Positions 14,236-31,072 of a stretch of DNA of 64,000 bases are shown here, one piece after another (position 1 is the first letter of the stretch; the number at the start of each line of letters is the position of its first letter). The DNA comes from Xanthobacteraceae bacterium 501b (GTDB lineage Bacteria > Pseudomonadota > Alphaproteobacteria > Rhizobiales > Xanthobacteraceae). The notes under the pieces were generated by a model that saw nothing but the letters and a program-made list of their open reading frames with translations, had not been told where the DNA came from and made no database searches. The stretch spans positions 372,001 to 436,000 of the forward strand of contig KB899087.1 of assembly GCA_000378025.1 (NCBI GenBank), written 5' to 3'. Position numbers and translations under genes: made by a program.

Positions 14236-15183
14236 TCATTCGCCTGTTCGGCGGATGAAGGCGCCGAAGGCGCGCGGGCCGTCGGCAACCGGGATCGTCT
14301 CCACCACCTTCAGCGTCGCGCTGTCGATGATGTCAAGCGTATTGGCCTCCCAGCAGGCGACATAGACGAACGCGCCATCGCGGCTGGCGGCGATGCCCTC
14401 GGGGTAATCGCCGACCGGGATAGTGGCGCGCTTTTCCAGCGTTTTGGTGTCGAACACGGTGACTGTGGAATCATATTGGTCGGTGACGAAGGCCAGCCCC
14501 CTCGCCAGCGCCACCGCATAGGGCCGCGCGCCGACTGTCACCGTGGCCACCACCTTGCGGGCCTTGAGGTCGATCACGCTCACATCATTGGAGGCGACGT
14601 TGGCGGTGTAGGCGCGGGCGCCTTCCGCGTCGATGGTGACGCCGAAGGGGCGGGCGCCGACCGGGATCGAGGCAAGGCGGGTCAGCGTCGCGGTGTCGAT
14701 CAGGCTCACCGCGTCGGAATCGCGGTCGGCCGAGAGCAGCAGCGCGCCGTCCGGCGTCACCGCGAGGCCGGAAGGGGATTGGCCGACCGCCACCTCGCCG
14801 GAAACCGTGCCGCTCGCCGCGTCCACCACCTTGATGCGGTGCTGGTACCAGTCGGCGACATAGGCCGGGCTGCCGGAGGGGTGGACGGCGACGCCGAGCG
14901 GACCGCCGCCAAGCTCCACCCGGTGGGTGACGGTGCGGGTGGCGGCATCAAGGATGGTCAGCGCCTTGCCGTCCGGCGAGGTGACGAAGGCGCGCGCGCC
15001 ATCGACGCTCACCGCGATGCCGGCGGGTTTGCCTGAGATGGGCAGGGTGGCGACGACCTTGCGGGTGGTGAGGTCGACGATGGAAAGCGCCTCTGCCGGC
15101 TGCGAGGTGATGAAGGCTTCATCCGCAAGGGCGGGCGGGGCGAGGAGGAGGGCGAGGTGGGCCAGTGCACCGATCACCGTCAT
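14236..15183 (-). CDS. YVTN-type beta-propeller secreted protein (YncE-like)
   Basis: A 315-residue protein with a signal peptide (MTVIGALAHLALLLAPPALA) and seven repeats of about 40 residues of the form DLTTRKVVATLPISGKPAGIAVSVDG and VIDLKARKVVATVTVGARPYAVAL, the YVTN propeller pattern. Such proteins are periplasmic; some work with PQQ-dependent dehydrogenases. The start codon lies inside a C-type palindromic repeat at 15179-15213 with no classic ribosome site; a GTG two codons later (15177) has a slightly better context. The gene probably follows the SRPBCC protein (15501-16046) on the same strand, across a 317-base repeat block. Confidence 0.8.
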   Translation of the reverse strand: MTVIGALAHLALLLAPPALADEAFITSQPAEALSIVDLTTRKVVATLPISGKPAGIAVSVDGARAFVTSPDGKALTILDAATRTVTHRVELGGGPLGVAVHPSGSPAYVADWYQHRIKVVDAASGTVSGEVAVGQSPSGLAVTPDGALLLSADRDSDAVSLIDTATLTRLASIPVGARPFGVTIDAEGARAYTANVASNDVSVIDLKARKVVATVTVGARPYAVALARGLAFVTDQYDSTVTVFDTKTLEKRATIPVGDYPEGIAASRDGAFVYVACWEANTLDIIDSATLKVVETIPVADGPRAFGAFIRRTGE

Positions 15184-15265
15184 CCCGGACGACCGAAGGT
15201 CGATCCGGGATCGGGCGGAGGCGGCGCGCAATCCCGGCGCGCGCGGTCGCGCGGCCGGGATGACG
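15179..15265. repeat. Family C palindromes, double copy
   Basis: Two hairpins lie back to back (15179-15213 and 15231-15265), built on CGTCATCCCGGACGACC/GGTCGATCCGGGATCG and ATCCCGGCGCGCG/GCGGCCGGGATGACG. The first contains the beta-propeller start codon. Confidence 0.7.
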
Positions 15266-15318
15266 CCGGGACGGACAGGAGACGCTTCGCGTTCGGGGGC
15301 GAGGTCCGTCGTCAAAGG

Positions 15319-15350
15319 CGTCATGCCCGGGCCGAGCTCGGGCATGACGG
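15319..15350. repeat. Family A variant hairpin
   Basis: CGTCATGCCCGGGCCGAGCT and its complement CGGGCATGACGG form a near-perfect palindrome followed by GGTTTTGG. Confidence 0.65.
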
Positions 15351-15428
15351 GGTTTTGGTAGCCGAGGGGTCCAGAGCGAGGTTGGGACCGGGCATGGCCC
15401 GTTCCTCCATGCCTTTCCGCATCCAATA

Positions 15429-24029: not shown

Positions 24030-24077
24030 ACGTCATCCTGAGGTGCCCGGACCTTGTCCGGGCCTCGAAGGATGCTC
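24030..24077. repeat. Palindromic repeat family D (CATCCTGAGG / CGAAGGATG)
   Basis: A hairpin whose outer arms CATCCT/AGGATG surround GCCCGGAC and GTCCGGGC. Located just after cobW; a related pair is at 50203-50306. Confidence 0.7.
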
Positions 24078-24107
24078 GTTGCGCGCGGTTTGGCCACCGG
24101 AACAGGC

Positions 24108-24188
24108 GTCATGGCCGGGCGTGTCCCGGCCATCCACGTCTTGCGGCTCCAAAGTCGTGGATCCCCGGGCCAGGCCCGGGGATGACGG
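24108..24188. repeat. Family A-related inverted pair before cobN
   Basis: The left half GTCATGGCCGGGCGTGTCC and the right half GGATCCCCGGGCCAGGCC then CGGGGATGACG face each other across 20 bases. It leaves only 26 bases to the cobN start. Confidence 0.7.
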
Positions 24189-24214: not shown

Positions 24215-27200
24215 ATGCACATCCTCACCACCACCTCCTCCAGCCTCGACGACCTCGTCGAGCCGGTCGATCTCGGCCAGACGCCCGGCGAGGTGGTGAT
24301 CGTCTCCTTTGCCGACAGCGACCTCGGCGCGCTGGCGCGGGCGCAGGAGGTGATGGCACAGGAGGTAATGGCGGGACCGGGGCTGCCCAGCCTGCGGCTG
24401 GCCAATCTGCGCGATCTCCGGCACCCGATGTCGGTCGATCTGTGGATCGACAAGGTGGGGAGCCGAGCCCGCATCGTGGTGGTGCGGCTGCTCGGCGGGC
24501 TCGACTGGTGGCGCTATGGCGTCGACCGGCTCAGCGCCGAGGCGCGGGCGCGGGGCTTCACGCTCGCCGTGCTGCCGGGCGAGGACCGCGACGACCCGCG
24601 CCTTGCCGAGGCCTCCACCCTTGCGGAGGCCGAGCTCGCGACGCTGCTCGGCTATTTCCGCGCCGGCGGGCCGGCGAATATGGCCGCGCTGCTGCGGGTT
24701 CTCGCCGGCTATGCGGGACGGGCGATGGCCTCCCCGCCGGCGCCGCAAAACCTGCCGCTGGCGGGGGGTTATGAGGGGGGCACTGCGTCCCCCTCACCCA
24801 ACCCTCTCCCCGACGGGAAGAGGGCTTTCGAGGACCAACAGGCCCTCAGGACCGGGCTTGACCCGGCCACCCAGCCGCAGTGGCGTGCGGATGGGGAAAC
24901 GCTGGGTCCCCGGGTCAAGCCCGGGGATGAGGGCCTCTCACTTTTGGAGGCTGCCCGCCCCGCCATCCCGATCATCTTCTACCGCTCCATGGCGCTGGCG
25001 GGCGATACCGCGCCGGTGGAGGCGCTGTGCGCGGCGCTTCGCGCGCGCGGGCTCGACCCCCGGCCGATCTATGTCGCCAGCCTGAAGGAGCCGACCTCCA
25101 TCGCCTTCCTGAAGGCGGCGCTGGCGGGCATGGACCCGGCCGCGATCCTGACGCTCACCGCCTTCGCCGCCGCCGATCCCGGCGAGGCGACGGTGCTCGA
25201 CGCGCCTGGCGTGCCGGTGCTGCAGGCGATTGTCGCCACCACGAAGCGCGCGGCGTGGGCGGAGGGCGCGCGCGGGCTGACCAGCGCCGATCTCGCCATG
25301 CATGTGGTGCTGCCCGAGCTCGACGGGCGGGTGCTGGCCGGGGCGCTCTCCTTCAAGGCGCCGCAGGAAACCCCCGCCGTGCCCGGCTTCGCCGCGCTGG
25401 TGAACCTTCCCGAGCCGGACCGGGTGGCGCAGATCGCCGACCGGGTCGCGGCGCTGGTGCGGCTGCGACAGACTCCCCGTGCCGACCGCCGGATCACCGT
25501 GCTGATGCCGGACTATGCCGGCGCCCCCGGCCGCACCGGCTGGGCGGTGGGGCTCGACGTGCCGGCGAGCGTGCGCGCGCTGCTGGCGGATTTGTGCACC
25601 GCCGGCTACGCGGTGGAGGATGTGCCGGCGGATGAGAAGGCGCTGGTGGCGGCGGTGAGGGGCGGGCCACCCCCTCTCTCCGACGGGGAGAGGGATGGGG
25701 TGAGGGGTGCTTTCCCCTCCGCGCCCGTTCTCCCCCTCACCCAACCCTCTCCCCGTCGGGGAGAGGGCTTTGCGCGGCACGACGGTGTTCTCTCCCTCGC
25801 CGCCTATCGCGCCCATCTCGCGGCTCTCCCGCCCGAGGCCGTCGCCGCTGTTGAGGCCGCCTGGGGAGCGCCGGAGGACGACCCGGACCTGTTCGACGGC
25901 GCCTTCCGTTTCCGTGCCGCCCGCTTCGGCCATGTCACCGTGGCGCTGGCGCCGGAGCGCGGCTCGGTGGCCGAGCGGCGGGCGCAGTATCACGATCCCG
26001 CCCTGCCGCCGCGCCACGGGCTGCTGGCCTTCGGCCTGTGGCTGCAAGGTTCCGCCGACGCGCTGGTGCATATGGGCGCGCATGGCACGCTGGAATGGCT
26101 GCCGGGCAAGCATGTGGCACTCACCCGCGCCTGTTTCCCCGAAATCGTGCTCGGCGCCCTGCCGGTGGCCTACCCCTTCATCGTGTCAAATCCCGGCGAG
26201 GCGGCGCAGGCCAAGCGGCGGATCGCGGCGGTGACGCTTGGCCATCTGCCGCCGCCGACGCAGGAGGCCGGCCTTGCCGGCGAGGCCGCCGCGCTGGAGC
26301 GGCTGGTGGATGAATATGCCCAGGCCGACGGGCTCGACGGGCGCCGGCGCGCGCGCCTCGCCCGGCTGATCGTCGAAGAGGCGACCCGCACCGGCTTTGC
26401 CCGCGACGCCGGGCTGAGCGCGGACGCCGACCCGGAGGAGGCGCTGCGCCAGATCGACGCCTTTCTCTGCGACATCAAGGAGATGCGGCTGAAGGACGGC
26501 TTCCATGTCTATGGCCGTGGCCCCTGCGGCGCCGCCGAGCGCGACGGGCTGCTGGCGGCGCTGGACGGGCGGCGGGTGGCGGCCGGCCCGGCCGGCGCGC
26601 CGGGGCGCGGGCGCTCGGACGTGGTGCCGACCGGGCGGAACCTGTTCACCAGCGACCCCCGCGCCTTGCCGACCGCGACCGCGATGGATCTCGGCCGGCT
26701 GGCCGCCGACGAGATCGTGCGCGCCTATGCGCAGGCGCATGGCGACTGGCCGCGCTCGCTCGTGCTCGACCTCTGGGGCAGCGCGACGCTGCGCACCGGC
26801 GGCGAGGAGATCGCGCAGGGCCTGGCGCTGATCGGCGCACGGCCGGTGTGGGACCCGGGCTCGGGCCGCGTTACCGGCATCGAGGTGTTGCCGCCGGCCG
26901 TGCTGGGGCGCCCGCGCGTTGACGTGACCTTCCGCATATCGGGCCTGTTCCGCGACCTGTTCCCGGCGCAGATCGCGCTCCTCGACGCCGCGCTGCGGGC
27001 GGTGGCGCGGCGCGAGGAGAGCGAGGAGGAGAACCCGCTCAAGGCCGCAGGCGAGAATGCCGCGCGCATTTTCGGCACCGCGCCGGGGGCCTATGGCGCC
27101 GGGCTGGAACGCAGCGCGGACGGGGTGGAGCGGGAGGCGCTGGCCGACGCCTATCTCGCCAGCGCCTCGCATGCCTATGGCGGGGCGGAAGGCGCGGGCC

Positions 27201-29580: not shown

Positions 29581-30311
29581 GCGAGATCGCGCAGGGGCGG
29601 CTGATCGGCGTCGGCGTCGGGCCGGGCGACCCGGAACTGATCACGCTGAAAGCGGTGCGGGCGCTGGGCGCGGCGGATGTCGTCGCCTATTTCGCCAAGC
29701 TCGGCAATGGCAGCCATGCCCGCGCCATCGCCCACCCGCATTTCCGTCCCGGCGCGGAGGAACTGCCGCTCGGCTACCCCGTGACCACGGAAATGCCGAA
29801 GGACGAGGCGCCCTATCGCACGGCGATCACGGGCTTCTACGAGGACGCCGCGCAGGCGGTGGCGGCGCATCTGCTGGCCGGGCGCACCGTGGCGGTGCTC
29901 TCGGAAGGCGACCCGCTGTTCTACGGTTCCTACATGCACCTGCATGTGCGGCTCGCGCACCGCTTTCCCACCGAGGTCATCGCCGGCGTCACCGGCATGT
30001 CAGGCTGCTGGTCGCAGGCGGGAACGCCGATCGCGCAGGGCGACGATGTGCTGAGCATCCTGCCGGGCACGCTCTCCGAGGCGGAACTCGCGCGCCGGCT
30101 CACAGGCACGGACGCGGCTGTCATCATGAAGGTGGGGCGCAACCTGCCAAAGATCCGCCGGGCGCTGGCGGTTGCCGGACGGCTGGAGCGGGCGCTCTAT
30201 GTCGAGCGCGGCACGATGACGGGCAGCCTGTGCGAAAAGCTGGAGACGCGGGGCGATGCGCCCGCGCCCTATTTCGCCATCGTGCTGGTGCCGGGCTGGG
30301 AGACGCGCTGA
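29577..30311 (+). CDS. cobI: Precorrin-2 C20-methyltransferase CobI
   Basis: A 244-residue SAM-dependent methyltransferase acting on precorrin-2. The corrin methylase fold shows LIGVGVGPGDPELITLKAVRAL (residues about 9-30), VLSEGDPLFYGSYMHL and EVIAGVTGMSGCWSQAGTPI. The C20-specific region and length agree with CobI. It starts inside the cobH stop and its own stop overlaps the cobJ start (TGATG). Confidence 0.95.
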   Translation: MSEIAQGRLIGVGVGPGDPELITLKAVRALGAADVVAYFAKLGNGSHARAIAHPHFRPGAEELPLGYPVTTEMPKDEAPYRTAITGFYEDAAQAVAAHLLAGRTVAVLSEGDPLFYGSYMHLHVRLAHRFPTEVIAGVTGMSGCWSQAGTPIAQGDDVLSILPGTLSEAELARRLTGTDAAVIMKVGRNLPKIRRALAVAGRLERALYVERGTMTGSLCEKLETRGDAPAPYFAIVLVPGWETR

Positions 30312-31072
30312 TGGCTAAAGGCAAACTGTTCATCGTCGGCCTCGGGCCGGGCGAGGCGCGCTATCTCACCCCGGAGGCGAGCGACGCGCTGGCCGGTGCC
30401 GAGGCGCTGTATGGCTACCAGCCCTATCTGGAGCGGGTGCCGGTGCGCGAGGGGCAGGCGCGCAACCCGTCCGACAATCGCGAGGAGCTGACCCGCGCCG
30501 GCGCGGCGCTGGCCCATGCCGCCTCCGGCGGGACGGTGGCGATGGTGTCGGGCGGCGATCCCGGCGTGTTCGCCATGGCGGCGGCGGTGATCGAGGCGAT
30601 CGAGGCCGGCCCGGCGGAATGGCGGGCGCTCGACCTCGTCATCGTGCCGGGAATCACCGCCATGCTGGCGGTGGCGGCCAAATGCGGCGCGCCGCTGGGC
30701 CATGATTTCTGCGCCATCTCGCTCTCGGACAACCTCAAGCCCTGGGAGGTGATCGAGAAGCGGCTGCGGCTCGCCGCGCAGGCCGGCTTCGCCATGGCCT
30801 TCTACAACCCGGTGTCGAAAGCCCGCCCGCACCAGCTCGACACCGCCTTCGAGATTTTGCGCGCCGAACTGCCGGCGGGCGTGCCGGTCATTTTCGGCCG
30901 CGCGGTGGGGCGGCCGGACGAGCGGATGCGGGTGGTGCCGCTCGGCCATGCGCGCGGGCACATGGCCGACATGGCGACCTGCATCATCGTCGGCTCGCCG
31001 GAGACGCGGCTGGTCGATCGCCCCGGCCTGCCGGCGCTGGTCTACACGCCGCGCCGCGCCGGGGACGACTGA
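30311..31072 (+). CDS. cobJ: Precorrin-3B C17-methyltransferase CobJ
   Basis: A 253-residue methylase that contracts the ring while methylating C-17. The P-loop-like GLGPG (10-14) begins the methylase fold, followed by YGYQPYLERV, NREELTRAGAALAHA, VSGGDPGVFAMAAAV and LSDNLKPWEVIEKRLRLAAQAGFAMAFYNPVSKARPHQL, all typical CobJ/CbiH. It is the last gene of the cobW-N-G-H-I-J run and is followed by a short repeat-bearing gap and then the convergent cobK. Confidence 0.95.
   Translation: MAKGKLFIVGLGPGEARYLTPEASDALAGAEALYGYQPYLERVPVREGQARNPSDNREELTRAGAALAHAASGGTVAMVSGGDPGVFAMAAAVIEAIEAGPAEWRALDLVIVPGITAMLAVAAKCGAPLGHDFCAISLSDNLKPWEVIEKRLRLAAQAGFAMAFYNPVSKARPHQLDTAFEILRAELPAGVPVIFGRAVGRPDERMRVVPLGHARGHMADMATCIIVGSPETRLVDRPGLPALVYTPRRAGDD

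Follow-up and report, generated by a model that had tools for sequence, protein, structure and literature searches.

The window that we analyzed is a stretch of 64,000 nucleotides of Xanthobacteraceae bacterium 501b (contig KB899087.1, positions 372,001 to 436,000) with a GC content of 70%. It belongs to a 5.1-Mb genome, 99.98% complete on 2 contigs, whose nearest named relatives are species of Ancylobacter, a genus of free-living bacteria not known as pathogens. The window contains a cobN gene, which encodes a vitamin B12 enzyme and harbors two blocks of palindromic repeats within its coding sequence (Table 1). The ORF has zero stops across its 1178 aa, and the NCBIfam CobN profile PRK12321 covers the whole product with 1552 bits against a cut-off of 1235, in agreement with the earlier view that CobN continues normally around the blocks. 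No second intact cobN was detected, the 99.98% complete genome giving 1 match, and a profile search found CobT in the same genome, above cut-off and without stops.

Table 1. Features of the cobN region (window coordinates)
Feature	Position	Strand	Description and basis
cobN, cobaltochelatase subunit, 1178 aa	24215..27751	+	Open ORF; NCBIfam PRK12321; Pfam CobN-Mg_chel; sole cobN match in genome
Site 1, single B-type palindrome	24788..24828	+	In-frame reading SPSPNPLPDGKRAF; 95% identity over 41 nt with copy 25731-25771
Site 1, A-type inverted pair	24840..24936	+	Arms 24840-24875 / 24901-24936, 86% complementary; A-core matches; RNA fold
Site 2, B-type inverted pair	25663..25776	+	Encodes recognizable 11-residue peptide; arms 25663-25699 / 25740-25776, 84% complementary; RNA fold
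C-type and CGTC-tagged (A/D) repeats in the cobW-cobN intergenic region	24032..24187	.	Same families occur inside cobN of relatives

The two in-frame blocks described by the first-pass annotation are present, at 24788-24936 (site 1) and 25663-25776 (site 2), although the second extends past the end at 25768 given there, and the encoded residues are about 192-241 and 483-521 instead of 191-239 and 484-518. Both blocks are stop-free and keep the frame, the whole cobN ORF being open; the 11-residue peptide ascribed to the B copies is present in the translation, and copies of A and B do recur between genes of the window, with core matches far above those of shuffled sequences (8 versus 0 for the B core, 12 versus a mean of 0.10 for the A core). 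Both inserts would form strong mRNA hairpins, as the predicted folds have z scores of -5.73 (24789-24937) and -6.07 (25660-25780), versus -0.23 and -0.63 for two other stretches of cobN. A chance origin of the repeats is rejected by the shuffles, for core counts as well as for RNA folds.

The inserts are predicted to occupy disordered linkers of CobN, which fits the suggestion that they sit in tolerated loops. In an AlphaFold2 model (33 rows, mean pLDDT of 73, pTM of 0.62), the two longest stretches with a pLDDT of <50 are residues 190-245 and 485-522, located between better predicted strands and helices, and the inserts coincide with them. Solved CobN and ChlH structures align over most of the model (923 residues for CobN 7c6o, Z of 42.2, rmsd of 5.3), and the sequence match to CobN 9uk9 is interrupted at 164/245 and 489/525.

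We ruled out that the operon is generally loose, since cobW and cobH, compared in 13 relatives, and cobG, likewise in 13, show no indels of at least 8 aa within the aligned stretches. Another comparison of neighboring genes, whose set included a spurious antisense ORF, gave indels of 8-9 aa and, in A. amanitiformis, a 19-aa indel in the ORF at 30230-31072, in which no repeat is visible by eye. The cobG match in one MAG (L057) is interrupted between residues 199 and 225.

Occupancy of the two cobN sites across the genus

cobN is present in all 30 genomes of the genus, with no stop reported within the matches and with CobN open frames of about 1089-1324 aa; the CobN open frame of locus L188 (G070), at 1662 aa, exceeds the others seen. 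In A. dichloromethanicus (L061), a run of N lies exactly inside the C-type hairpin at site 2, and the two parts of cobN are in different frames, perhaps an assembly artifact.

An alignment of 38 CobN proteins (30 from the genus and 8 others) contains two blocks of extreme length variation, exactly at both insert sites, the remaining gap blocks (at least 8 columns) being much shorter or terminal. Site 1 is occupied in 21 and empty in 9 of the 30 genus genomes, site 2 is occupied in 19 and empty in 11, and both are empty in 7. Comparison with homologues, the check that had been recommended for these blocks, thus yields related genomes without repeats or with other families at both places; relatives without repeats have a short linker there, not identical residues.

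The occupant DNA consists of palindrome pairs from at least four distinct families (A/D, B, C, and E), and the inserts comprise from about 26 to 113 residues per site. Among the 30 genomes, site 1 holds B in 16, A in 5 (two with both), and C in 2, and site 2 holds B in 6, C in 7, D in 4 (one with C and D), and E in 3. For instance, site 2 contains B in the window genome and in A. vacuolatus, C in A. rudongensis, and E in A. aquaticus, and it is empty in A. polymorphus. Sister pairs on the CobN tree differ at one site at least in 8 of 10 cases, in a hand count with labels set by eye. The labels were subsequently set by script, A and D being counted as one family since they cross-match. With the script labels, occupants match their best family at 0.82-1.00 and sister species carry distinct families; some half-site patterns were taken from cobN copies, so that the exact matches of those copies arise partly by construction. 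The earlier reading is understated: rather than an accidental insertion in a single lineage, cobN contains two recurrent, genus-wide sites that are taken by several unrelated families.

Of the eight genomes in the tree that lie outside the genus, one (G042, which belongs to a different genus of this family) carries about 155 aa of B-like insert with three B-like palindromes at site 1 (L071). Eleven further outside loci were fetched, and in the 7 in which the residues before the FYR motif were read, no such insert was seen by eye. At site 1 of G004 and G024 (L067 and L070), a different perfect 28-bp palindrome, ACCAACATCGGATGCATCCGATGTTGGT, lies in frame inside the B element, apparently as a nested insertion. 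At site 2 of A. vacuolatus (L021), compared with 25663-25776 of the window, sequence similar to the right flank stands in place of the left end of the B pair, which resembles a template switch at CGACGG.

A single ancient insertion at each site that later diverged into apparent families would agree with the identical position of the sites across the genus and with parts of the flanks that resemble, by eye, remnants of older elements. We nevertheless regard it as very improbable, given the closeness of each occupant to its own family (0.82-1.00, some patterns being from cobN copies) in sister species with distinct families, and given that C, A/D, and E are multicopy elsewhere in the window genome, whereas divergence should not convert one conserved repeat into another.

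On a CobN tree built without both sites, by a quick method and with 8 forks open, the minimum number of state changes is 13 for site 1 and 16 for site 2, and these numbers are unchanged with the script labels. A tree of cobW, cobG, and cobH from 14 species gives 7 and 9 changes, and the CobN tree restricted to those rows likewise gives 7 and 9. Such parsimony counts are blind to gain versus loss, and to transposition versus allele exchange. Exchange between species could be behind part of the state changes. We find it rather doubtful that homologous exchange of cobN alleles, and not repeated insertion, spread the inserts between species. Copies of the same family at one site always share their frame, among the copies matched, and in A. 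vacuolatus site 2 begins with what resembles, by eye, a switch between empty and filled alleles. However, a shared frame is also expected when only one or two frames are open, the flanking-gene tree of the 14 species needs as many changes (the flanking genes may travel with cobN), and exchange spreads states without creating different families.

Repeat families, reading frame, and selection

Families A, C, D, and E are multicopy outside cobN in the window genome. The CGTC-tag pattern has 65+66 matches there (0 for the reversed control), the C-type pattern has 52+50 (control, 0), and the B core, with at most 2 mismatches, is found at 37 places (control, 2+2), 3 of which are in cobN; a 17-mer from the B head has two exact occurrences, both within cobN. 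With at most 1 mismatch allowed, 29 of the 30 genus genomes contain two or more matches to the E pattern, 147 being the maximum, and G012 contains a single one; counts of 4-7 in several genomes (e.g., G024 and G027) are near the control of 2, and the genomes with E in cobN have 110, 44, and 147 matches. By eye, the terminal tags (CGTC, TGTC, or CCTC being expected of CGTC REPs) are CCTC-AT... for the right arm of A, CGTCAT or CCTCAT for C, D, and E, and CCTC for B. The A/D stem reads ATSSCCGGG-CTTGA/G-CCCGGSSAT-CCA, B has a stem without AT start, and C and E have a longer loop, again by eye and relative to the published definition of an 8-9-bp stem with AT start, a 4-5-nt loop, and a CCA tail. 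The elements form head-to-head dimers, as inverted pairs in cobN and as 28 CGTC and 10 C dimers extracted from stretches of the window genome.

Apart from those of cobN, the multi-hit clusters of the window are intergenic or located at the ends of genes, and nine weak, isolated matches within genes were attributed to chance. One E-type pair (15178-15265) is within the 5' end of an ORF of the minus strand (14236-15426), the start of which may be over-long. We further examined the coding flanks of 136 clusters plus 9 more from the window and from fetched stretches of its genome, among the matches listed (131 CGTC-tag and 102 C-type matches being counted genome-wide). Among the matches listed, 85 clusters have at least two element hits, and of these only the two cobN blocks are part of a single coding frame that stays open across them. 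In eight clusters (7 multi-hit), the flanks code on the same strand but in different frames, the arrangement expected between neighboring genes; one contains an in-frame stop, and 5 were left out for short flanks. Six in-frame single hits, all of them 13-mers in which no palindrome is visible by eye, were excluded from the element count. Of 230 control points inside genes, the method recovered 196, so that it may miss a few intragenic cases.

A search for RAYT (Y1_Tnp, PF01797) as a candidate mobilizer was negative in all 30 genus genomes and positive in 5 of 14 control genomes, and RAYT was rejected for this role. The joined outer tips of A/D, CCGTCATGACGG, were considered as a candidate excision scar, and their genus-wide count exceeds that of the reversed control. 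For 20 of these places no filled counterpart was found, in a comparison of little power among the sequences of this analysis only, and many of the 20 resemble ordinary coding sequence; the idea of genome-wide excision scars, which gained no support, was dropped. In G016, site 1, where B tips are joined to the flank that adjoins B in relatives, and site 2 are candidate scars by eye.

The CobN frame is open through each of the 39 occupied sites that are free of gaps, versus 22 of 78 for the other two sense frames. The lengths of the 38 dimers from the window genome cover all residues modulo 3 (11/10/7 for CGTC and 2/5/3 for C), indicating that the elements are not built as in-frame cassettes and that the host protein filters them; among the fetched stretches of that genome, no complete B dimer was found outside cobN with the pattern used. 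The CobN core is under purifying selection, with a dN/dS of 0.12-0.28 in 10 pairs, and the inserted peptide looks weakly constrained, with values of 0.26-1.56 on 11-80 codons only. That cobN is a pseudogene drifting with junk insertions, as the unusual nature of the inserts might suggest, can hence be given next to no credence: besides the low dN/dS of the core, no stop is reported within the matches of any of the 30 genus genomes (the A. dichloromethanicus gene shifts frame across an assembly gap), and CobT is above cut-off and stop-free.

The palindrome DNA is better kept than the peptide, since stems and arms vary less than the rest of the inserts. In 10 pairs, 53 of 725 stem columns differ versus 161 of 838 other insert columns, the stems being helices of at least 6 bp from folding the first member of each pair and the columns being nonindependent; the reverse fold for site 2 of G019 versus A. 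radicis gave no difference (4/46 and 7/86). With consensus arms, 27 of 619 versus 187 of 944 columns differ in the same 10 of 19 pairs (hand sum; a Fisher test was applied), arms found by similarity being biased towards conservation. Core four-fold sites differ by 15-34% in the 19 pairs, and one of these pairs, G015-G019 at site 1, has no arm advantage (31/103 versus 28/103). This stem conservation could result from selection, from homogenization with other copies, or from recent replacement. The hairpins might be retained because they are useful, for example as brakes on translation between CobN domains or as control elements of the cobN mRNA, in line with the conserved stems and the strong folds (z of -5.7 and -6.1 versus -0.2 and -0.6). 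We judge this quite improbable, as 7 of the 30 genomes are empty at both sites, different hairpins substitute for each other, and homogenization with genomic copies or recent replacement could yield the same pattern.

We propose, as the most probable reading and with good confidence, that paired palindromic repeats of several families land and are retained in two disordered linkers of CobN (about residues 188-246 and 483-523) where they are tolerated, with a frame filter and repeated fill, swap, and loss. The occupants would be CGTC-tagged REP dimers (A/D), C and E with the same outer tag, and the CCTC-headed B. Elements may enter the loops via a mobilizer other than RAYT or by copying from other loci. 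Since CobN is under purifying selection, only inserts that have a stop-free frame and a total length divisible by three would survive, and frame-breaking or stop-bearing entries would be purged with the cell line. Later elements would add to, replace, or delete earlier ones, with deletion perhaps proceeding through the hairpins, and during the history of the genus the loops would have gone through many rounds of filling, swapping, partial deletion, and emptying. The inserts would presumably be translated as floppy peptide.

Persistence in cobN is hinted at by one B head variant, 16 of whose 60 genus-wide matches (coordinates compared by hand) lie in cobN, a gene that makes up <0.1% of the genome, though the share of the looser core is 3/37; copies being related by descent, 16/60 is no count of insertions. 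It seems to us unlikely, on present evidence, that the coding gene is a preferred refuge, where elements outlast intergenic copies because the reading frame removes many decay paths and where new families pile into the same spot, possibly via a mobilizer targeting existing repeats.

Relation to known repeat systems

Intragenic REPs and the RPEs of Rickettsia, whose genomes are AT-rich, are of a known kind. As far as our literature search goes, what is new is the recurrent colonization of two loops in one enzyme by several families across a genus. The cobN loops constitute a natural experiment on repeat movement and protein invasion, and insertion mechanism and protein tolerance become directly testable in free-living hosts. 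Our search, to which subscription papers were mostly external, found no literature on these repeats in Ancylobacter, and the words "intragenic" and "in-frame" are absent from the available part of PMC12306157.

According to the accessible sections of Di Nocera et al. (2013; PMC3733652), CGTC REPs occur mainly in alphaproteobacteria, apparently lack a dedicated transposase, and have no known mobilizer; intragenic REPs exist, and recB of two Xanthomonas species carries different REPs at about the same site. From that description, the A/D elements resemble CGTC-tagged REPs by their CGTC or CCTC-variant tag and head-to-head pairing and, by eye, by a 9-bp stem that starts with AT, a loop of 5 nt, and a CCA tail. 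The Ancylobacter case differs in that at least four families occupy two sites of a single gene, which occur both filled and empty among 30 species, and in that B, C, and E fall, by eye, outside the stem and loop definition given there. Like REPINs, as presented in the portion of Bertels and Rainey (2011; PMC3116915) at hand, in which excision of whole units is reported, the cobN elements combine an inverted REP pair and spacer as a unit; unlike the REPIN/RAYT system, they occur with Y1_Tnp in 0 of 30 genus genomes.

The likeness to the protein-coding palindromes of Rickettsia, already raised in the first-pass annotation, proves to be good, inasmuch as the text seen of PMC3733652 classes RPE-4 and RPE-6 as CGTC-tagged REP families, a class that A/D appear to fit. 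As in Rickettsia RPE-4/6/7, the palindromes are in frame and the host genes open, and the ATGAC motif given in the excerpts of PMC3767692 is the complement of the GTCAT end in Ancylobacter; the sequence likeness is that of the tag reported in these two papers. Many genes carry elements in Rickettsia, in those same excerpts, whereas in Ancylobacter only those of cobN, among the multi-hit elements examined, are in frame in genes. In Rickettsia, RPEs of different groups are found at nearby positions in orthologous genes, and for shared RPE-4/6/7 sites the authors of the R. japonica study, in the passages available, left both hotspots for insertions of different origin and one diverged insertion as options (PMC3767692). 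With its many replicates and its empty and filled alleles, the cobN of Ancylobacter favors the hotspot option over divergence.
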